Positions 10,815 to 17,328 of a stretch of 46,588 nt of DNA are shown in pieces (positions within the stretch are counted from its first letter, which is position 1; each line of letters opens with the position of its first letter). The notes beneath the pieces were generated by a model. The model made no database searches and was not told where the DNA came from. It saw only the letters and a program-made list of their open reading frames with translations. The position numbers and the translations under genes are program-made. This stretch comes from Neisseria elongata subsp. elongata (GTDB lineage: Bacteria > Pseudomonadota > Gammaproteobacteria > Burkholderiales > Neisseriaceae), in the NCBI RefSeq assembly GCF_900113545.1, contig NZ_FOPS01000012.1:1-46588 (forward strand), given 5' to 3'.

Positions 10815-12440
10815 TCAGCGTATATCCGCCCAAGTCAGCCCGAAGCGTTGCAGGTATTTGCGCAGGCGGTCGCTGTCGTTGGCGGTGGCGCGTTCCAGCC
10901 GCGATACGTTAAACAGGGCGCGGCCGGCGGCGGCCATGTTGGGGTGGCGGCGGCATTCGGCGATGACGTGTTGCAGTTGGACGCGGTCGAACAGGTCGAG
11001 GGTTCCGGCATCGATTTTGGCGGGCAGGCCGTCTGAAAGCCGGTTTGCAAAAGGATTTTCCGCATCGTCCGCATCCGTTTCGTCCGCCCACAGCCATTTC
11101 AGACGGCCTATTTCGGCTTCAACCAATTCTGTCTGTATCCTGCCCTGCGGGGCAAGTGTGGCCAGGCGCATGATGCTGGCGGCAAGGTCGCGGAAATTGC
11201 CGCGCCATCGGGCTTCGCTTGAATGGGCGAAGGCAAGGTAGGCGGACAGTGCTTCTTTATTGAAACGGGTGGCACGGCCGAGTTCCTGCGAGGCGAGCGC
11301 GAGCTGGTGTTCGATGTTCGGCTCGATGTCTTCGCGGCGGTCGGCGAGCGCGGGCAGCGGGTAGTTCCAAATATTGATGCGGGCGAACAGGTCTTCGCGG
11401 AAGCGTCCGGCGCGGATTTCCCGCCGCAAATCGCGGTTGGTACCGGCAATCAGCTGGAAACTGCTTTGCACTTCCTTGTCGCTGCCGACGGGATAAAAAT
11501 GTTTTTCTTCAATGGCTTTGAGCAACATGGCCTGCTCGTCCAAGCCCAATTCTCCGATTTCGTCCAAAAACAGCACGCCGCCGTCGGCGGTTTTCAAATA
11601 GCCTTCGCGCTTTTCCGCCGCGCCGGTAAACGCGCCTTTTTTGTGTCCGAACAGGGCGGAAGCCGCGCCGTCGCCGCGCAAGGTGGCGCAGTTCACATCG
11701 ACAAACTCGCCTTTAATCAGATGGCGCGCCTTTTTCAATTCGAAAATCCTGCGTGCCAACATCGATTTGCCCGCGCCGGTAGGGCCGGAGAGCAGAATCG
11801 GCGACGGAGAATGGAGCGCGACTTGTTCAATTTCGGCAATCATGCGGTTGAAGGCGGCGTTTTGGGTGGAGATGCCGCTTTTCAGGTAGCGCACCGCATC
11901 ATCGCGCACGGCGGCGAGGCGTTCGGCCAGCACATCGTAACGCGCCAAGTCCAAATCGATGATTTCATAACTGCCGACATCGCCTTTTCCCATGTTTCGC
12001 CTTTGATTTTTCGGCGGCGCAGTCTGCAACAGCACGCCGGGGATTTGACGCGATTCCACCAATAAAAACAGGCAGATTTGCGCAACGTGCGTACCCGTGG
12101 TGATGTGGGTAAGATAGGTTTCCTCTTCCGTATCAAACGCATAGCCTGCTGCCCAATCGTGTAGCTTGGTATAAACCTCGGAAAAATCCCACGGGTTTTC
12201 CAGCTCCATAGGCACGAGATTGACGGCGGTGTGCGGCGACACCTGCTGAATATCGGCTTTTACATGATCCGCCAGATCGCGGTATTTCTCCGAATAAAAC
12301 AGCTCCATGCGGTCAAGATGGAAATCCTGACGCTGATTCATGGCAACGTTCGGCCGCCATTTCTGCCAACGCCCTTGCCCGAAACCGCTATCCAATACCG
12401 TGCCGAGAAAGCTGACGGCGACGTTTTTTCTACTATTCAT
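10815..12440 (-). CDS. rtcR: RtcR, sigma54-dependent activator of an RNA-repair operon
   Basis: Bacterial enhancer-binding protein that switches on sigma54 promoters. Residues 1 to about 185 form the RtcR sensor domain (CARF-like; in known systems it senses RNA-damage ligands such as cyclic-phosphate RNA ends). The AAA+ domain has Walker A GPTGAGKS at 219-226, an intact sigma54-contacting loop GAFTGA at 269-274 and Walker B VLFLDE at 289-294. A C-terminal DNA-binding segment ends the 541-residue protein. It is transcribed away from a perfect -24/-12 promoter that drives the Y-like RNAs, the Ro protein and the RNA ligase, so the pairing of regulator and target is clear. DUS-derived residues (RLSDGL, about residue 470) lie between the AAA+ domain and the DNA-binding part. 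Confidence 0.95.
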   Translation of the reverse strand: MNSRKNVAVSFLGTVLDSGFGQGRWQKWRPNVAMNQRQDFHLDRMELFYSEKYRDLADHVKADIQQVSPHTAVNLVPMELENPWDFSEVYTKLHDWAAGYAFDTEEETYLTHITTGTHVAQICLFLLVESRQIPGVLLQTAPPKNQRRNMGKGDVGSYEIIDLDLARYDVLAERLAAVRDDAVRYLKSGISTQNAAFNRMIAEIEQVALHSPSPILLSGPTGAGKSMLARRIFELKKARHLIKGEFVDVNCATLRGDGAASALFGHKKGAFTGAAEKREGYLKTADGGVLFLDEIGELGLDEQAMLLKAIEEKHFYPVGSDKEVQSSFQLIAGTNRDLRREIRAGRFREDLFARINIWNYPLPALADRREDIEPNIEHQLALASQELGRATRFNKEALSAYLAFAHSSEARWRGNFRDLAASIMRLATLAPQGRIQTELVEAEIGRLKWLWADETDADDAENPFANRLSDGLPAKIDAGTLDLFDRVQLQHVIAECRRHPNMAAAGRALFNVSRLERATANDSDRLRKYLQRFGLTWADIR

Positions 12441-12461
12441 TTTTCTACTTTTCTATATTTT

Positions 12462-12518
12462 AAGATATTTTTTAGCATTCTACCCCTTCCGCAGCAAAAG
12501 GCTACCTGAAAATATCTT
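12462..12518. promoter_or_regulatory. Candidate RtcR upstream activating site (inverted repeat)
   Basis: A perfect 10-base inverted repeat, AAGATATTTT (12462-12471) and AAAATATCTT (12509-12518), has centres 47 bases apart. It lies roughly 80-130 bases upstream of the expected sigma54 start, a normal distance for an enhancer. The sequence is AT-rich, so chance is not excluded. Confidence 0.35.
12499..12510 (+). repeat. Eikenella-type uptake sequence (AG-eikDUS)
   Basis: Exact AGGCTACCTGAA, the dialect described for Eikenella, not the AG-DUS used by most of this window. Further exact copies are at 12992-13003 (minus), 13432-13443 and 13939-13950, all inside the RNA-repair island. Confidence 0.85.
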
Positions 12519-12568
12519 CTTTTTATTTTCAATCAATTAAAAATAATTTTTGCCATTTTACTCATGCT

Positions 12569-12584
12569 TGGCACGGCTATTGCA
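12569..12584 (+). promoter_or_regulatory. Sigma54 (-24/-12) promoter of the RNA-repair operon
   Basis: TGGCACG-N4-TTGCA is a full match to the sigma54 consensus, with GG at 12570-12571 and GC at 12582-12583. The predicted start is near 12595, a few bases before the first Y-like RNA. It lies 129 bases from the divergent rtcR start, leaving room for an RtcR enhancer. Confidence 0.92.
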
Positions 12585-12596
12585 ATATGGTTTTCA

Positions 12597-12738
12597 GGCA
12601 CCGGCAAATGCCGGAGGAATTACAGCCTACGAAGCTCGAGGTCGCGGGTTCGAATCCCGCCTCTGCCGCCAACGATGGCAGAGTAGCTCAGAGGATAGAG
12701 CGCGTAACAATTTCTCCACCTCTAGTTGCCGAAGTGCC
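12597..12738 (+). ncRNA. Y-RNA-like module 1 with permuted tRNA head
   Basis: The outer stem GGCAC-CGGCAA (12597-12607) pairs with TTGCCG-AA-GTGCC (12726-12738). An internal loop ATGCC / ...CTAG follows, then an inner stem GGAGGAA (12613-12619) with TTTCTCC (12711-12717) and TTAC with GTAA. The head is a tRNA in permuted order: T-arm GCGGG-TTCGAAT-CCCGC (12644-12660), 3' acceptor strand CTCTGCC plus GCCA (12661-12671), a short linker, 5' acceptor strand GGCAGAG (12677-12683, 7 bp) and D-arm GCTC...GAGC (12686-12701). The anticodon arm is replaced by the Y-type stem. A CGAAG element near 12629 resembles the Ro-binding core. It is expected to be the first RNA of the sigma54 transcript. Confidence 0.85.
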
Positions 12739-12744
12739 CCCTAC

Positions 12745-12834
12745 GGGCGGATGCCGGCAGGATTACATTGTCTGGAAACAGCGGGTTCGATTCCCGCCGC
12801 CGGAAACGGCGAAATCCTGCCAATCTAGCCGCCC
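12745..12834 (+). ncRNA. Y-RNA-like module 2, T-arm plus GAAA hairpin
   Basis: Outer stem GGGCGG (12745-12750) with CCGCCC (12829-12834); conserved internal loop ATGCC / AATCTAG; perfect 9-bp inner stem GGCAGGATT (12756-12764) with AATCCTGCC (12813-12821). The head keeps a tRNA T-arm GCGGG-TTCGATT-CCCGC (12781-12797). In place of the acceptor and D-arm it has a hairpin CGCCG-GAAA-CGGCG (12798-12811) closed by a GNRA tetraloop. A run of six T follows at 12838-12843, so the 3' end could be a terminator or processing site. Confidence 0.82.
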
Positions 12835-12844
12835 ACCTTTTTTC

Positions 12845-12976
12845 GCGGCATGGAAAAACAAATGCCTTCGAAACTACATTGGTCGCAGGTTCGAGTCCTG
12901 CCCCGCTCCAAACGGGTAGCTCAGTTGGGTAGAGCGGTGAGGCGTTTCCAAAAAAACTCGTTGTTTGCCATGCCGC
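12845..12976 (+). ncRNA. Y-RNA-like module 3 with permuted tRNA head
   Basis: The outer stem GCGGCATGG (12845-12853) pairs perfectly with CCATGCCGC (12968-12976) and continues as AAACAA (12856-12861) with TTGTTT (12961-12966). The conserved loop is ATGCC (12862-12866) against CTCG (12957-12960), a variant of CTAG. The inner stem is weak (GAAAC with GTTTC). The head has a T-arm GCAGG-TTCGAGT-CCTGC (12885-12901), a 3' acceptor-like CCCG with CTCCA, then CGGG (12913-12916) and a D-arm GCTC-AGTTGGGTA-GAGC (12919-12935). It is again a tRNA read 3' half first, without an anticodon arm. Confidence 0.78.
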
Positions 12977-12991
12977 CCCTTAATAAATATT

Positions 12992-13003
12992 TTCAGGTAG
13001 CCT
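12992..13003 (-). repeat. Eikenella-type uptake sequence (minus)
   Basis: TTCAGGTAGCCT is the exact reverse complement of AGGCTACCTGAA. It lies between Y-like module 3 and the small membrane gene, inside a near-palindrome TTTCAGGTAGCCTGAAA. Confidence 0.8.
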
Positions 13004-13020
13004 GAAACAGGATGTTTGTT

Positions 13021-13395
13021 ATGAACACTTGGCAAATCATCAGCGTCATCGTTTTTTCGACCATGATTTATCTGTCCTTCCAAAACAGCCGCAGCCGTAA
13101 ACGCGAACAGGCTTGGCGGGAGCGGACTTTTCCCGAAGCGGAATGCCGTTTGATAAAGGAAGGCAGCCGTTACGACATCATGCTTTCAGACGGCCGCGCC
13201 TTCGGCCAAGCCGAAATCCTCGGCACGGCACAGGGCAAAGAAGCGGAGTTTCTGTTCGGCTATGGGAACATGCTTGTTTTGAGGCTTTCAGACGGCCGCA
13301 AGGCCTATGTGCGGCAGTTCTGCGTCCGCTGCATGATTGAAAGCGAAAGGCCGTCTGAAAGCGCGGCTTCGATGAAGTTAAAACTAAGTTCCTGA
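13021..13395 (+). CDS. Small membrane-anchored protein of unknown function within the Y-RNA array
   Basis: Predicted 124-residue protein. I chose the ATG at 13021 (MNTWQII) because AGGA lies 8-11 bases upstream; the ATG at 13012 overlaps that ribosome-binding site. Residues 3-18 (TWQIISVIVFSTMIYL) form a single hydrophobic segment, probably an N-terminal anchor. A basic stretch (SRSRKREQAWRER) and a small soluble domain of about 80 residues follow. Three AG-DUS copies are read in frame (as LSDGR twice and RPSES). The gene interrupts the non-coding RNA array between modules 3 and 4, on the operon strand, so it would be co-transcribed. I do not recognise the family. Two cysteines near the C-terminus (CVRC) are notable. 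Confidence 0.65.
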   Translation: MNTWQIISVIVFSTMIYLSFQNSRSRKREQAWRERTFPEAECRLIKEGSRYDIMLSDGRAFGQAEILGTAQGKEAEFLFGYGNMLVLRLSDGRKAYVRQFCVRCMIESERPSESAASMKLKLSS

Positions 13396-13406
13396 AGGAG
13401 GCTAGG

Positions 13407-13526
13407 TTTCTGTGAAGCTAAAACGAAATACAGGCTACCTGAAAACGAAGTGTCCGAAGGAAGCTGAGTTTCTGCGGAGCTAAAACGGAGCTTCCAAAAG
13501 AAGCGAAGTCTCTGCGAAGCCAAAAC
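13407..13526. repeat. Three short repeats, consensus TTTCTGCGAAGCTAAAAC
   Basis: Copies at 13407-13424, 13469-13486 and 13509-13526 share the 18-base consensus with one to three differences. A fourth copy sits at 13916-13933, and a weaker relative near 23908 lies in the hemL terminator loop. Spacing is irregular (62 and 40 bases), unlike a CRISPR. An Eikenella-type uptake sequence lies between copies one and two. Confidence 0.7.
13432..13443 (+). repeat. Eikenella-type uptake sequence
   Basis: Exact AGGCTACCTGAA within the short-repeat stretch between the small membrane gene and Y-like module 4. Confidence 0.8.
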
Positions 13527-13545
13527 CAATATTTGCAAGTTTTAC

Positions 13546-13630
13546 GGGCGGATGCCGGCAGGATTACATTGGATAAACAATCGTCGTACTAATAATACGA
13601 AGCAGGAATCCTGCCACAGCCTAGCCGCCC
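13546..13630 (+). ncRNA. Y-RNA-like module 4 without tRNA parts
   Basis: Outer stem GGGCGG (13546-13551) with CCGCCC (13625-13630), loop ATGCC / ACAGCCTAG, and a perfect inner stem GGCAGGATT (13557-13565) with AATCCTGCC (13607-13615). The frame is nearly identical to module 2. The head lacks a T-arm and instead has simple hairpins (ATTG-GATAAA-CAAT; TCGTA-CTAATAA-TACGA). The shared frame with a different head shows that the stem is the conserved element. Confidence 0.8.
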
Positions 13631-13640
13631 ACCCTTTTCC

Positions 13641-13793
13641 GGTACGGCAGACAGATGCCGGAGGAATTACATTCCACGTCCGAAGGTCGCGGGTTCGAGT
13701 CCCACCCTGCCGCCAACAAACTTCTATGGCAGGATAGCTCAGGGGTAGAGCATCGGAAGAGAATTTCTCCAACACCTAGCTGCCCGCCGTACC
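13641..13793 (+). ncRNA. Y-RNA-like module 5 with permuted tRNA head
   Basis: Outer stem GGTACGGC (13641-13648) with GCCGTACC (13786-13793); loop ATGCC (13655-13659) / AACACCTAG; 9-bp inner stem GGAGGAATT (13660-13668) with AATTTCTCC (13762-13770). A GTCCGAAGG element resembles the Ro-binding core of Y RNAs. The head has a T-arm around TTCGAGT (one C-A mismatch in the stem), then CCTGCC plus GCCA (13706-13715), a 12-base linker, GGCAGG (13728-13733), and D-arm GCTC-AGGGGTA-GAGC (13737-13751). Its layout closely matches module 1. A T-run follows at 13797-13801. Confidence 0.84.
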
Positions 13794-13810
13794 CCCTTTT
13801 TACGGCAGCA

Positions 13811-13879
13811 GGCGGATGCCTGAAGGGATTACATTAACCTGTAAAGTTAAAAACCGTATCCCTTCAAATATTAGCCGCC
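13811..13879 (+). ncRNA. Y-RNA-like module 6, minimal stem-loop
   Basis: Outer stem GGCGG (13811-13815) with CCGCC (13875-13879), loop ATGCC / AATATTAG, and a perfect 9-bp inner stem TGAAGGGAT (13821-13829) with ATCCCTTCA (13858-13866). The head is only about 28 bases and can form TAAC-CTGTAAA-GTTA; no tRNA elements remain. It keeps the conserved ATTACATT after the inner 5' strand. It is the last module before the Ro gene. Confidence 0.75.
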
Positions 13880-13915
13880 GCGCCACCACCTATTCGAGGC
13901 CGTCTGAAAGCGCAG

Positions 13916-13933
13916 TTTCTGCGGAGCTAAAAC
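13916..13933 (+). repeat. Fourth copy of the TTTCTGCGGAGCTAAAAC repeat
   Basis: Identical to the copy at 13469-13486. It lies between module 6 and the Ro gene, flanked by an AG-DUS (about 13898) and an Eikenella-type uptake sequence (13939). Confidence 0.7.
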
Positions 13934-13938
13934 AACTC

Positions 13939-13950
13939 AGGCTACCTGAA
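13939..13950 (+). repeat. Eikenella-type uptake sequence
   Basis: Exact AGGCTACCTGAA about 20 bases before the Ro (TROVE) gene start. Confidence 0.8.
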
Positions 13951-13969
13951 ACCAACAACACGAAAGGAA

Positions 13970-15541
13970 ATGAAAATGGCTAACACCACCTTGTTCCAAT
14001 CCATGAAAACCCGTTCAACTGCCGCCGACACCCGTAATGAAGCCGGCGGCATCGCCTATACGCTGACACCCAAGCAACAGCTCGCCCAACTTGCCGCCAC
14101 TGGCTGCCTGAACAGCACCTACTACGCCGATGCGCAAGACCAGCTTGAGCAAGTATTGGAATTGGCAGAAAACCTGGATGCCGAGTTTATCGCCAAAACC
14201 GCCGTGTACGCCCGTCAAAAAGGCTTCATGAAAGACATGCCTGCACTGTTGCTTGCCGTGTTGGCGCAAAAAGACGTGAACATGCTTGCCCGCGTATTCG
14301 ACCAAGTGGCGGACAACGGTAAAATGTTGCGCAACTTCGCGCAAATCATCCGAAGCGGCGCGGTCGGTAGAAAATCCTTCGGCAACCGTCCGAAAAAACT
14401 GATGCAGACCTGGCTTTTGACCGCCACCGAAAAACAACTGTTGAACGCAGCCATCGGCAACGCCCCGTCGCTGGCGGACGTGGTCAAAATGGTGCATCCC
14501 AAACCGCGTGAAGCATGGCGTGCCGCCTGGTTTGCGTGGCTCATCGGCAAACCGTATGACCGTGCAGCATTGCCGCCCATCACCCGCGCTTTTGAAGACT
14601 ACAAACAAAGCCGCCAAGGCGCATTGCCCGACGTTCCGTTCCAAATGCTCACTGCCTTGGAATTGAACAGCGGCGACTGGGCGCAAATCGCCCGCAACGG
14701 CTCATGGCAGCAGGTTCGCCAAAACCTGAACACCTTTCTGCGCCACGATATGTTTGCGAAAAGCAAAAACATCAAAATGGTGGCAGAAAAACTGCGCGAC
14801 AAAGCCGCCATTGCCCGCGCCCGCGTTCTGCCTTACCAATTGCTGACCGCGTATCAAGCCGCATCCGAACAGATGCCGTTTGAAATCCGCGAAGCCCTGC
14901 AAGATGCGATGGAAACCGCCGTACAAAACGTACCGGCAATCCGAGGCAAAGTCGTGGTTTGCCCCGACGTCTCCGGCTCCATGCACAGCCCGGCCACCGG
15001 CTATCGCGGCAGCGCGACCAGCAGAACCCGCTGTATCGACATCGCCGCGCTCGTGTCCGCCGCCATGTTGCGCACCAACCCGCAAGCCCGCGTGATACCG
15101 TTTGAACAAATCACAGTAAACGTGCAGCTCAACCCGCGCGACAGCATCATGACCAACGCCCAAAAACTCGCCAATATCGGCGGCGGCGGAACGGCATGCA
15201 GCGCACCGCTCGCCATGCTGAACCGCGAAAAAGCCGATGTGGATTTGGTCGTCATCGTGTCTGATAACGAAAGCTGGGCAGACCGCGGACAATGGGGCGG
15301 CAAAACCGGCCTGATGAAGGAATGGGACATCCTGAAACAACGCTGCCCCGAAGCCAAACTCGTCTGCCTGGACATCCAGCCCTACACCACCGCACAGGCG
15401 CAAAACCGCCGCGACATCTTGAACATCGGGGGCTTCTCCGACCAAGTGTTCACGCTCATCGGCTCGTTCGCCGAGCAAGGTATGGGCGCGGATTTCTGGG
15501 TGGAAGAGATTGAGAAAACCGAGCTGGCGGCGGTAAATTAG
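13970..15541 (+). CDS. rsr: TROVE-domain Ro60-like RNA-binding protein (Rsr)
   Basis: Ring-shaped RNA-binding protein related to Ro60; in other bacteria it binds Y RNAs and works with exonucleases in RNA quality control. The N-terminal TROVE HEAT-repeat region covers about residues 1-320. A von Willebrand A domain follows, with a complete MIDAS start DVSGS at 333-337 (VVCPDVSGSMHS), then GGGGTACSAPL and VIVSDNESW. Length is 523 residues, normal for bacterial Ro. The ATG at 13970 lies close to AAAGGA; the ATG at 13976 (MANTTLFQ) has better spacing and may be the true start. It follows six Y-like RNAs and precedes the kinase-ligase, with a hairpin made of mucosa-type DUS after its stop. Confidence 0.95.
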   Translation: MKMANTTLFQSMKTRSTAADTRNEAGGIAYTLTPKQQLAQLAATGCLNSTYYADAQDQLEQVLELAENLDAEFIAKTAVYARQKGFMKDMPALLLAVLAQKDVNMLARVFDQVADNGKMLRNFAQIIRSGAVGRKSFGNRPKKLMQTWLLTATEKQLLNAAIGNAPSLADVVKMVHPKPREAWRAAWFAWLIGKPYDRAALPPITRAFEDYKQSRQGALPDVPFQMLTALELNSGDWAQIARNGSWQQVRQNLNTFLRHDMFAKSKNIKMVAEKLRDKAAIARARVLPYQLLTAYQAASEQMPFEIREALQDAMETAVQNVPAIRGKVVVCPDVSGSMHSPATGYRGSATSRTRCIDIAALVSAAMLRTNPQARVIPFEQITVNVQLNPRDSIMTNAQKLANIGGGGTACSAPLAMLNREKADVDLVVIVSDNESWADRGQWGGKTGLMKEWDILKQRCPEAKLVCLDIQPYTTAQAQNRRDILNIGGFSDQVFTLIGSFAEQGMGADFWVEEIEKTELAAVN

Positions 15542-15546
15542 CCAAG

Positions 15547-15587
15547 GGGTCGTCTGAAGATAAGGTGGCAACGTTTTCAGACGACCT
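15547..15587 (+). terminator. Hairpin of mucosa-type DUS after the Ro gene
   Basis: GGGTCGTCTGAA (15547-15558) faces TTCAGACGACCT (15576-15587), an exact reverse AGGTCGTCTGAA. It could end or attenuate transcription before the ligase gene. The dialect differs from the AG-DUS of most of the window. Confidence 0.6.
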
Positions 15588-15613
15588 TACCGATAAAAGA
15601 TTGAGTGGCAAAC

Positions 15614-15824
15614 ATGAATGCTGACGAACTTGCCTTGATTGAAACCTTTCCCGCAGCCTTGCGGCATGAGACAGAAAGACCGTATCCGCAGCTATTGGCA
15701 TTGTTATCACAGCCGCCGTTATCCCGATTGGCAAAGTTATCCCGTCCGTTTGCTGGCGGAAAAAATCGATAAGGAAATCGCCCGTATTGTTTTCAGACGA
15801 CCTCCTACGCCAAACGTCGTCTGA
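15614..15824 (+). pseudogene. Possible small ORF or relic between Ro and ligase genes
   Basis: An ATG at 15614 opens a 52-codon frame (MNADELALIETFPAAL...) that stops near 15772. An overlapping frame to 15824 continues with plausible residues (YPDWQSYPVRLLAEKIDKEI). The sense of the text seems to pass from one frame to the other around 15670-15700, so this may be a frameshifted remnant. Family unknown; it could also be non-coding. Confidence 0.25.
15792..15803 (-). repeat. Mucosa-type uptake sequence (AG-mucDUS)
   Basis: Exact TTCAGACGACCT. Another exact copy is inside the ligase gene at 17055-17066, and near-copies are at 15815-15825 and 16719-16730. Confidence 0.75.
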
Positions 15825-15849
15825 AAACCCAAATAAGGAAACCAAAACC

Positions 15850-17328
15850 ATGCAAAAATTCATCTTAATCCGCGGTCATCAAGGTTCGGGAAAATCGACT
15901 TTCGCCGAACAAAAAGCCGCCGAATTTAAAGCGAAGTACCGTGATGCGGAAATTGTCCGTATTGAAAACGACTTGTTCATGACCGACGAAAACGGCGTGT
16001 ACCGCTGGTCAGGCGAGGCGGTGGATAAGGCGCAGAAGCGCGGTAATGCCTTGATGACTGAAACCTTAAAAATCGGACGCCAAAATCCGAACCGCAACAT
16101 TTTAATCATCCATTCCAACACCAACCAAAAGGCTTCGCGTTGCCGCCATTTGTTGGATTTGGCGAAAAAAAGCGGTTTCGAAACAGAAATCTACCGTATG
16201 CACAATTTCTATCCCAACCTGCACGGCGTGAAAGAGCATGACGTGTTGGCGGCGTATATCAAGCTGAACCAAAACCGTGTGGCAAACGAAATCCACGTCG
16301 AAGCCATGCAGCCCGCCAACGCGGAACAGTTGGAAAAAATCAAGCAAATGCAGGCTTTCGAGCGGCAACCCTTGTCGTTTGACGAAGCGCAGCAAACCTT
16401 CGTCACCGAAAATTATCTGCAACACGGCAGCCGCAACTTTACCGCCAAAGCATCCAAGCGTTATCCAGAATTGCGCGTGTTGAAATACGCACGCAGCGTG
16501 TTCTATAACAACCGCTTCGACGATGCACTGCTGGAAATGCGCGGTTTGATTATCGACGCGCACAACCGCATCATCGTGCGCCCGTTTAAAAAAGTGTTCA
16601 ATTATTCGGAGCGTATTGCCAAAGGCAGCCGTTACCCGATCCGCGTCAGCGACGAGCGATTAGTGGATGCGGTGGTAAAAGTGAACGGCTTCCTCGGCTG
16701 CTGCACTTTCGTCTCGCTTTCAGACGACCACCCGTCCCACGGCGCGGCGTTTGACGGCAAAGTGCTGTATTCGACCACCGGTTCGCTTGATAGCGCGTTT
16801 GCAGACATGACCGCCGCACACTGCGCGCAATACGAAACCCTGTTCCGCGCTTATCCGAACCACACTTTTTTGTTTGAAATCACAGACGCGAAAGATATCC
16901 ACATCATCCGCGAAGAATTGGGTGAAACCCTAATCGGCTGCATCGACGTGGCGACAGGTCATCAATTTTCTGAAGCGGAATTGGACGAAATCGGCAAACA
17001 ATACGGCATCCGCCATCCCGAAACGCTGAAAAACATTACGTTTGGCGAGCTGAAAGGTCGTCTGAAAAACGTGGAACACGAAGGCTTTATGGTATTTGAT
17101 GCCCAAACCGGCGAAATGCTGTTCAAACTCAAATCGCCGTATTACCTGATTTCCAAGTTTCTGGGACGAAGCAACGAAGGCAACATCGGACGCAAGCTCG
17201 ACAAACGCCACGTCGATGAAGAGTTTTACCCCTTAATCGACCATATCCACGATCATCGCGAAGCGTTCAACGCCATGCCGGAATTGGATAAGATTGCGTT
17301 TATCCAAGCATTCTTGCGGCAACTGTAA
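15850..17328 (+). CDS. Fused polynucleotide kinase and T4-type RNA ligase
   Basis: Two-domain RNA end-healing and sealing enzyme of 492 residues, starting at ATG 15850 with AAGGAA about 10 bases upstream. The N-terminal kinase has P-loop GHQGSGKST at 9-17, END (39-41) as a likely catalytic aspartate, and HSNTN at 88-92, similar to the T4 Pnkp lid region. The ligase half has motif I KVNG at 277-280 (K277 as the nucleotidyl site; N replaces the usual D), motif III FEIT at 342-345, motif IV EGFMVFD at 411-417 and motif V KLK at 426-428. No phosphatase domain is present. It would phosphorylate 5'-OH ends and join them to 3'-OH ends in the cytoplasm, replacing RtcB/RtcA of the classic RtcR operons. 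It contains one exact mucosa-type DUS in frame. Confidence 0.92.
   Translation: MQKFILIRGHQGSGKSTFAEQKAAEFKAKYRDAEIVRIENDLFMTDENGVYRWSGEAVDKAQKRGNALMTETLKIGRQNPNRNILIIHSNTNQKASRCRHLLDLAKKSGFETEIYRMHNFYPNLHGVKEHDVLAAYIKLNQNRVANEIHVEAMQPANAEQLEKIKQMQAFERQPLSFDEAQQTFVTENYLQHGSRNFTAKASKRYPELRVLKYARSVFYNNRFDDALLEMRGLIIDAHNRIIVRPFKKVFNYSERIAKGSRYPIRVSDERLVDAVVKVNGFLGCCTFVSLSDDHPSHGAAFDGKVLYSTTGSLDSAFADMTAAHCAQYETLFRAYPNHTFLFEITDAKDIHIIREELGETLIGCIDVATGHQFSEAELDEIGKQYGIRHPETLKNITFGELKGRLKNVEHEGFMVFDAQTGEMLFKLKSPYYLISKFLGRSNEGNIGRKLDKRHVDEEFYPLIDHIHDHREAFNAMPELDKIAFIQAFLRQL

Follow-up and report, generated by a model that had tools for sequence, protein, structure and literature searches.

The RNA repair operons controlled by RtcR are the closest described relatives of the locus analysed here. 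In Salmonella, rsr-yrlBA-rtcBA is under the control of RtcR (PMC9879122, PMC7790460), whose signal is RNA carrying a 2',3'-cyclic phosphate (PMC9879122), and both tRNA halves and the tRNA-like YrlA have been tied to this operon (PMC7790460, PMC8394870). RtcR homologues adjoining other cargo are also known (CoCoNuTs, PMC11090510). The window, which is the whole stretch of 46,588 nucleotides that was analysed, corresponds to contig 13 (NZ_FOPS01000012.1) of the 2.36-Mb genome of Neisseria elongata subsp. elongata, and contains a locus that looks like the known RtcR alarm and its helper RNAs coupled to repair enzymes different from those of the described versions (Table 1). Judging from the sequence, it is likely that this locus encodes an RtcR-controlled tRNA repair system in which RtcB and RtcA have been replaced by a split kit of kinase, phosphoesterase and ligase.

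The Salmonella operon and the window have in common a divergent rtcR gene, a sigma54 promoter, a Ro/Rsr gene and Y RNAs (YrlA with its tRNA-like domain). The window differs in having a fusion of polynucleotide kinase and Rnl1-type ligase, plus a nearby phosphoesterase, where Salmonella has RtcB/RtcA, and in its six Y RNAs, which come first, whereas the two of Salmonella are located after rsr. When the class was scanned for YrlA, strong matches were obtained in 4 of 370 genomes, including the present one (an undercount, given the strict filters). Two of the other three bear canonical RtcR-Ro-RtcB-RtcA operons (L100 and L102) with four Y modules each; their RtcR (56-57% identical) and Ro (56-60%), the Y stem, which is the same, and the similar heads are shared with the window, whereas RtcB and RtcA (with RlaP in one of them) stand where the window has the kinase-ligase and the Y RNAs lie between Ro and RtcB. 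The third genome showed Ro and two modules, with no RtcR within 16 kb. An earlier note on this DNA had taken the RNA array to be much larger than known ones, which was overstated: four Y RNAs also occur in canonical rtcBA operons, so the size of the array is not enough to set the locus apart; its distinguishing features are the exchanged sealing module and the Y RNAs placed first. The remainder of that interpretation (RtcR, sigma54 site, Y-like RNAs, Ro and the swap to a kinase-ligase) was supported by the sequence.

The T4 tRNA repair pathway shares with the window a kinase domain and an Rnl1-family ligase. In the window both are fused in one chain, the metallophosphoesterase is separate and RtcR is present, whereas in T4 the phosphatase domain is part of the kinase protein. 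The bacterial Pnkp-Hen1 and Pnkp1-Rnl-Hen1 complexes likewise unite a kinase, a phosphatase and an ATP-dependent ligase in one kit, and the phosphatase domains of these two complexes come from different superfamilies (PMC4411300); the window has a different domain split as well as RtcR and Ro-Y partners. Among the papers listed by the literature searches none was recognisable as describing this operon, although key reviews were outside its coverage and absence from print is not claimed.

Table 1. Positions in the window of the features of the RtcR locus and the evidence for each
Feature	Position	Strand	Description	Evidence
rtcR	10815..12440	(-)	CARF-AAA-HTH sigma54 activator, divergent to Y array	NCBIfam NF038308 800 bits (equivalog cut-off 650); PADLOC RtcR 822.7 bits
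sigma54 (-24/-12) promoter	12569..12584	(+)	TGGCACGgctaTTGCA	exact match, 0 mismatches
Y RNA 1	12601..12735	(+)	Ro stem and permuted tRNA-like head (T arm, 7-bp acceptor, discriminator and CCA, D arm)	Rfam YrlA 68.1 bits, cut-off 69
Y RNA 2	12744..12838	(+)	Ro stem, T arm only	Rfam YrlA 30.7 bits, below cut-off
Y RNA 3	12855..12970	(+)	Ro stem, head with T and D arms	Rfam YrlA 98.2 bits, above cut-off
Small open reading frame, 124 aa	13021..13395	(+)	N-terminus hydrophobic (by eye); follows Y RNA 3 and precedes Y RNA 4	
Y RNA 4	13546..13630	(+)	Ro stem, short head without tRNA-like arms	stem descriptor; same slot in relatives; no Rfam match
Y RNA 5	13648..13789	(+)	Ro stem, head with T and D arms	Rfam YrlA 44.9 bits, below cut-off
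Y RNA 6	13810..13880	(+)	Ro stem, short head	stem descriptor; same slot in relatives; no Rfam match
Ro60/Rsr-like protein, 521 aa	13976..15541	(+)	in-frame ATG also at 13970	
Gene remnant	15669..15785	(+)	what is left of a gene (about 195 aa) that five relatives have near full-length	39-residue match, 61.5%
Polynucleotide kinase / Rnl1-type RNA ligase fusion, 492 aa	15850..17328	(+)		Pfam, PHROG, motifs
Metallophosphoesterase, 217 aa	18610..19263	(+)	candidate 3'-end-healing partner, 1285 nt downstream of kinase-ligase	

Regulator, promoter and repair enzymes

The perfect sigma54 promoter divergent to rtcR that the earlier note had pointed out was confirmed. The element TGGCACGgctaTTGCA is the sole match to the sigma54 consensus in the window, the number expected by chance with at most one mismatch being 0.81, and transcription is predicted to start near 12596. 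The RpoN gene is whole in this genome (394 bits, positions 1-434 of 434, without a stop), and the intact state of RtcR, promoter and RpoN was counted in favour of RtcR-controlled repair. Of the 17 array loci, 13 have a sigma54 element (two mismatches at most) that precedes the first Y stem by 33-36 nt, a placement seen in 0.57% of 5100 draws of random stretches. Since the Y RNAs are placed first and at this distance behind the element, they are probably the first product of the operon. The element at the array was retained in a genome in which rtcR is distant from it (G066); in the Neisseria genome G045, rtcR, the Y-Ro pair and the kinase-ligase are found at three separate places, with one sigma54 site for the pair and another for the kinase-ligase, an arrangement that supports RtcR-controlled repair. 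A candidate RtcR enhancer, TTTTCAATcaATTAAAAA, is not claimed, being AT-rich and not conserved across all loci.

The T4-type kinase-RNA ligase fusion was corroborated by several libraries. Matches to RNA_lig_T4_1 (PF09511) and AAA_33 were slightly above the Pfam cut-off, and because these scores are modest the assignment also rests on PHROG matches and motifs: the phage RNA-ligase family phrog_562 (2.2e-37), which we take to be of the T4 Rnl1 type, the polynucleotide kinase family phrog_505 (1.5e-7), and the sequences GHQGSGKST (Walker A), K-x-N-G, LFE, EGFMVF and KLKS, presumably kinase and ligase motifs, which were invariant across 10 sequences. The protein is thus predicted to be an Rnl1-type RNA ligase with a 5' kinase. 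A profile search of the PDB returned the T4 kinase at E 0.27 at best, and no phosphatase domain was found in the fusion by Pfam. Relatives of the N-terminal domain that are 45-51% identical and have no ligase match (kinase-only genes) were observed at four loci (L052, L053, L054 and L055), L088 and L089 being records of two of them. ATP-grasp RNA ligases require 3'-OH and 5'-P ends (PMC7824862).

That the kinase-ligase stands in place of RtcB/RtcA also held, as no RtcA match was found in this genome and its single RtcB gene is on another contig, beside a PrfH-like gene. In that place (L023:2363-4803, contig 14) RtcB, an open reading frame of no known type and the PrfH-like RF-1-domain gene are in a row, and this cluster is a separate repair system.

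The metallophosphoesterase gene, which lies beyond the stretch described by the earlier note and was not mentioned in it, may supply the 3'-end healing absent from the fusion by removing a 2',3'-cyclic or 3'-phosphate. The Pnkp of Clostridium thermocellum uses a metallophosphoesterase domain for 3'-end healing. The window protein matched phrog_547 (phosphoesterase, 1.2e-48), and the motifs D-x-H, GD, GNHD and GH-x-H, which we take to be metal motifs, are present in an alignment of three sequences; Pfam gave no match for it or for the L069 orthologue and matches below the cut-off for three others, and the window protein had no NCBIfam match either. The ThpR-type phosphodiesterase model found nothing in this genome, while it matched 11 of 14 control genomes. 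A second full-length metallophosphoesterase (contig 10:331060-331713) and a fragment (contig 9:72590-72856), both 59% identical, were also observed in the genome.

Matches to the kinase-ligase were obtained in 19 of the 83 genomes of the family, from which two weak or partial ones (G057 and G062) were dropped, leaving 17 that include a remnant (G036). The metallophosphoesterase was found in the same 17 genomes (p 4.9e-18), or in 17 of 19 if the two partial matches are counted. It is on the same strand and 39-1709 nt downstream of the kinase-ligase in 15 of the 17; in G031 it is on another contig. RtcR was above its cut-off in 24 genomes: 15 have it together with the kinase-ligase and nine have it alone (eight in one genus, the ninth being G036), one fragmented genome (G046) has the ligase only and 58 have neither (Fisher p 1.5e-9). 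Named genomes were also scanned with two peptide patterns, an approach that captures part of the family; in 17 of the 21 loci recovered, the metallophosphoesterase was behind the kinase-ligase, with a gap of 12-139 nt in 14 and of 1.1-1.7 kb in three (L069, L070 and L080); it is mostly directly behind in Moraxella, Cardiobacterium and Pasteurellaceae. The four loci without it correspond to split-gene pieces (L071 and L087) and to kinase-only genes (L088 and L089).

In the proposed mechanism, tRNAs cut so as to leave 2',3'-cyclic-phosphate and 5'-OH ends would be sensed via the CARF domain of RtcR, by analogy with Salmonella RtcR, and RtcR would drive sigma54 transcription from about position 12596, first of the Y RNAs and then of Ro and the kinase-ligase. 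The metallophosphoesterase would strip the 2',3'-cyclic or 3'-phosphate, the kinase would phosphorylate the 5'-OH, and the Rnl1-type domain would use ATP to join the 3'-OH to the 5'-P. Ro, carrying Y RNAs that differ in their heads, could act as a platform holding, presenting or discarding the damaged tRNA.

The Y-like RNAs

All six structured modules that the earlier note had listed were recovered. They have a two-helix basal stem with a 5' AUGC(C) internal loop, and their common architecture consists of an outer and an inner helix with the AUGCC internal loop between them, and of a 3' loop whose last bases are UAG (five modules) or CUCG (one). The Rfam model of YrlA (RF02553, gathering score 69) matched four of the six, of which one passed, one was 0.9 bit short and two were clearly below. 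A purpose-built stem descriptor recovered every one of the six, and had no hit when the same 10.5 kb was shuffled 10 times. In its first form the descriptor did not detect Y RNA 5, and five hits at a score of at least 15 fell in other parts of the window, after which it was loosened and another score used; Y RNA 5 then reached 29.7 against a threshold of 29, and it has its own Rfam match, given in Table 1.

Applied to the 17 array loci (one per genome), the descriptor gave 86 modules, from 2 to 8 per locus, 76 of them distinct. Three window heads have T and D arms, one has a T arm and two have a short loop; among the distinct modules the corresponding classes were T and D arms (26), T arm only (21) and neither (29), according to a strict motif rule by which some degenerate heads fall into lower classes. 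In a pairing-independent test with 87 anchors chosen by sequence motif, the module's own inner arm outpaired the mean of the other modules' arms in 79 cases. Twenty heads were chosen by loop sequence and spacing: 18 had 7/7 acceptor pairs and 13 had the discriminator and CCA directly after the acceptor strand, two mis-anchored or displaced by one base having been scored as failures. The acceptors showed 133 of 140 pairs, compared with a mean of 120 and a maximum of 129 in 2000 shuffles, which is a weak test because most heads are close relatives. The order of the head (T arm, acceptor 3' strand, CCA, linker, acceptor 5' strand, D arm) is a permuted tRNA order. CCA could also be read at the same place in the Y RNAs of the canonical operon L100, so the encoded CCA is not special to the kinase-ligase variant. 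No source tRNA for the head of Y RNA 1 was found in its own genome, where the comparison gave the head itself, head 5 and matches with E of at least 0.08, one of them over most of the head at 73%.

Two weak YrlA matches elsewhere in the genome were dropped, because they overlap tandem tRNA genes, which present the same arm order across their junction; as tandem tRNA genes give such matches, weak YrlA matches in 78 of the 83 genomes were not taken as evidence of Y RNAs. In L049, one descriptor hit in the interval from Ro to the ligase is probably due to chance.

With heads of this kind, the Y RNAs could also be decoys that bind and titrate out nucleases attacking tRNA, or enzymes that bind it, with just a tidying-up role for the ligase. 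Such a role would agree with the 26 modules keeping both arms and with the 13 heads in which CCA follows the acceptor, and competitive inhibition was named as a possibility for YrlA by Hughes et al. (PMC7790460); however, the heads have no anticodon arm, the site of most mapped Salmonella cuts in the same paper, and 29 modules have neither arm by our rule, though at least one of these (L047) resembles a degenerate tRNA-like head. We consider it unlikely that decoy activity is the function of the locus.

A bolder extension of the repair reading, which we regard as rather improbable, is that the permuted-head Y RNAs are working substrates and that RtcR is a general tRNA-damage alarm with interchangeable repair chemistry, independent of RtcA/RtcB. 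A tRNA-processing cut at the CCA-linker junction may leave ends that the kit could reseal, and the first-made RNAs may serve as damage gauges or as Ro adaptors, each head for a different partner.

In three Moraxella loci (L074, L078 and L086) the interval from rtcR to the kinase-ligase, which is the slot of the Y array, contains a sigma54-like site followed by a tRNA-like RNA of about 230 nt. A 7-bp acceptor, a T arm and an ACCA end were read in it by eye, and the acceptor is changed yet paired between L074 and L078/L086; this RNA was not called by ARAGORN or by Rfam at the gathering score.

Distribution and neighbouring genes

The comparison of rtcR loci across Neisseriaceae that the earlier note had proposed showed the same set recurring in other Neisseriaceae and in Cardiobacteriaceae. 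The 21 pattern-scan loci belong to Neisseria, Cardiobacterium, other Cardiobacteriaceae, Moraxella, Alysiella, Conchiformibius, another member of the Neisseriaceae and Pasteurellaceae. Ro and Y RNAs are beside the ligase in both Cardiobacterium loci, one Cardiobacteriaceae metagenome-assembled genome and Alysiella, and absent beside it in another such assembled genome (L083). The two Pasteurellaceae loci showed no rtcR within the stretches examined. In one member of the Neisseriaceae genus of the eight RtcR-only genomes we observed an rtcR 51% identical to that of the window, adjoining an SPFH/Band-7 gene and RtcB (L060:3565-8703).

In six of seven Moraxella loci rtcR is accompanied by the kinase-ligase, with no Ro or Y RNAs within stretches of 14-21 kb, and because of this it is the ligase that seems to accompany the regulator more constantly. 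The same loci speak against the possibility that Ro and the Y RNAs tether PNPase in order to degrade structured or broken RNA, while the kinase-ligase acts on another target. This explanation has precedents in the Rsr-Y-PNPase machines of D. radiodurans and in the binding of Salmonella Rsr and YrlA to PNPase (PMC7790460, PMC8394870, PMC9879122), and it seems to us even less probable than the decoys and than the working substrates considered above.

The Ro gene predicted by the earlier note was verified by matches to vWA_Ro60 (64.4 bits) and TROVE (30.7 bits), both above the Pfam cut-off, and to the solved Rsr structure 2nvo (1.2e-26), though its score for the NCBIfam Rsr equivalog (84.5 bits) was far below the cut-off of 900; by its sequence this is a diverged member of the Ro family. 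The small membrane-protein gene of the same note was sustained as an open reading frame with 75, 79 and 89% identity to three aligned relatives; it had no Pfam, NCBIfam, PHROG or PADLOC match and its membrane helix was judged by eye.

The remnant between Ro and the ligase, which the earlier note had passed over, belongs to a gene that is near full-length between Ro and ligase in four genomes (G013, G023, G026 and G048) and before the ligase piece in G031, and of which just the 39-residue match is left in the window and in G018. An open frame was seen in G048, the genome in which the frame was read, and no family match was found in the libraries searched, PHROG and PADLOC among them.

In three Neisseria relatives (G018, G023 and G026) a Thg1-family gene (113 bits) was observed in the interval from rtcR to the array, and one that is 66% identical occupies the same slot in Cardiobacterium hominis; the window had no match. 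Thg1-like proteins repair tRNA 5' ends, and the position of this gene beside rtcR and the array was counted as pointing to tRNA repair. Among the Neisseria relatives, L064:3009-9108 bears in this interval a 1792-aa double helicase (DEAD and UvrD type) together with the Thg1-family gene.

The mixed uptake-sequence make-up of the locus was likewise new with respect to the earlier note. As judged by DNA uptake sequence (DUS) words, all four eikDUS-type words of the window are within 12441-13975, where four common-type words also occur; six of eight mucDUS-type words are within 15542-17328, a stretch without the common type, and 61 of 67 common-type words are outside 10815-17328. This mosaic suggests that the pieces of 12441-17328 were acquired from different Neisseriaceae. 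The dialect names and hosts are those of PMC3630211. The mixed dialects, the gene remnant and the decayed copies in G023 and G036 would fit a mobile island in decay that now does little in this strain, which is the least probable explanation, since the RtcR, Ro, kinase-ligase and phosphoesterase frames and the promoter are whole in the window and relatives of each are well conserved.

Weight of the repair reading and its significance

Several observations weigh against RtcR-controlled tRNA repair by the exchanged kit. Activation of RtcR in E. coli requires RtcA and RtcB, and E. coli tRNA fragments bound the CARF domain, not full-length RtcR, and were insufficient to activate RtcR in vitro (PMC9650030); because the present genome has no RtcA match and its RtcB is unlinked, beside the PrfH-like gene, activation of RtcR here would have to differ from that of E. 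coli or use other partners. The metallophosphoesterase of G048 is 1.6 Mb from the kinase-ligase, and in Neisseria orf187 and the reverse-strand rpiB separate the two genes, so the candidate partner is possibly not co-transcribed there. No sigma54 element with up to two mismatches was found in four of the 17 array loci (L063, L072, L076 and L082), of which L082 retains a GG-GC core 29 nt before the first Y stem. Relatedness among the genomes means that the co-occurrence p-values overstate independence. There is also decay in relatives (loci L030, L033 and L032): the kinase-ligase of G023 is in two frames, G036 has ligase remnants alone, with no Ro match in the stretch examined, and one stop is inside the metallophosphoesterase match of G045. 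As a separate observation, L063 (from G031) has a six-module Y array and Ro, with no recognisable sigma54 site and no rtcR within its 8-kb stretch.

The locus represents a natural exchange experiment, in which the same RtcR alarm and the same Ro-Y partner are found with two unrelated sealing chemistries, and the metallophosphoesterase is proposed as the partner that would complete the kinase-ligase. Three questions thereby become open to experiment: does RtcR function in the absence of RtcA and RtcB, are Ro and the Y RNAs devoted to repair or to decay, and what purpose do the various Y heads have?

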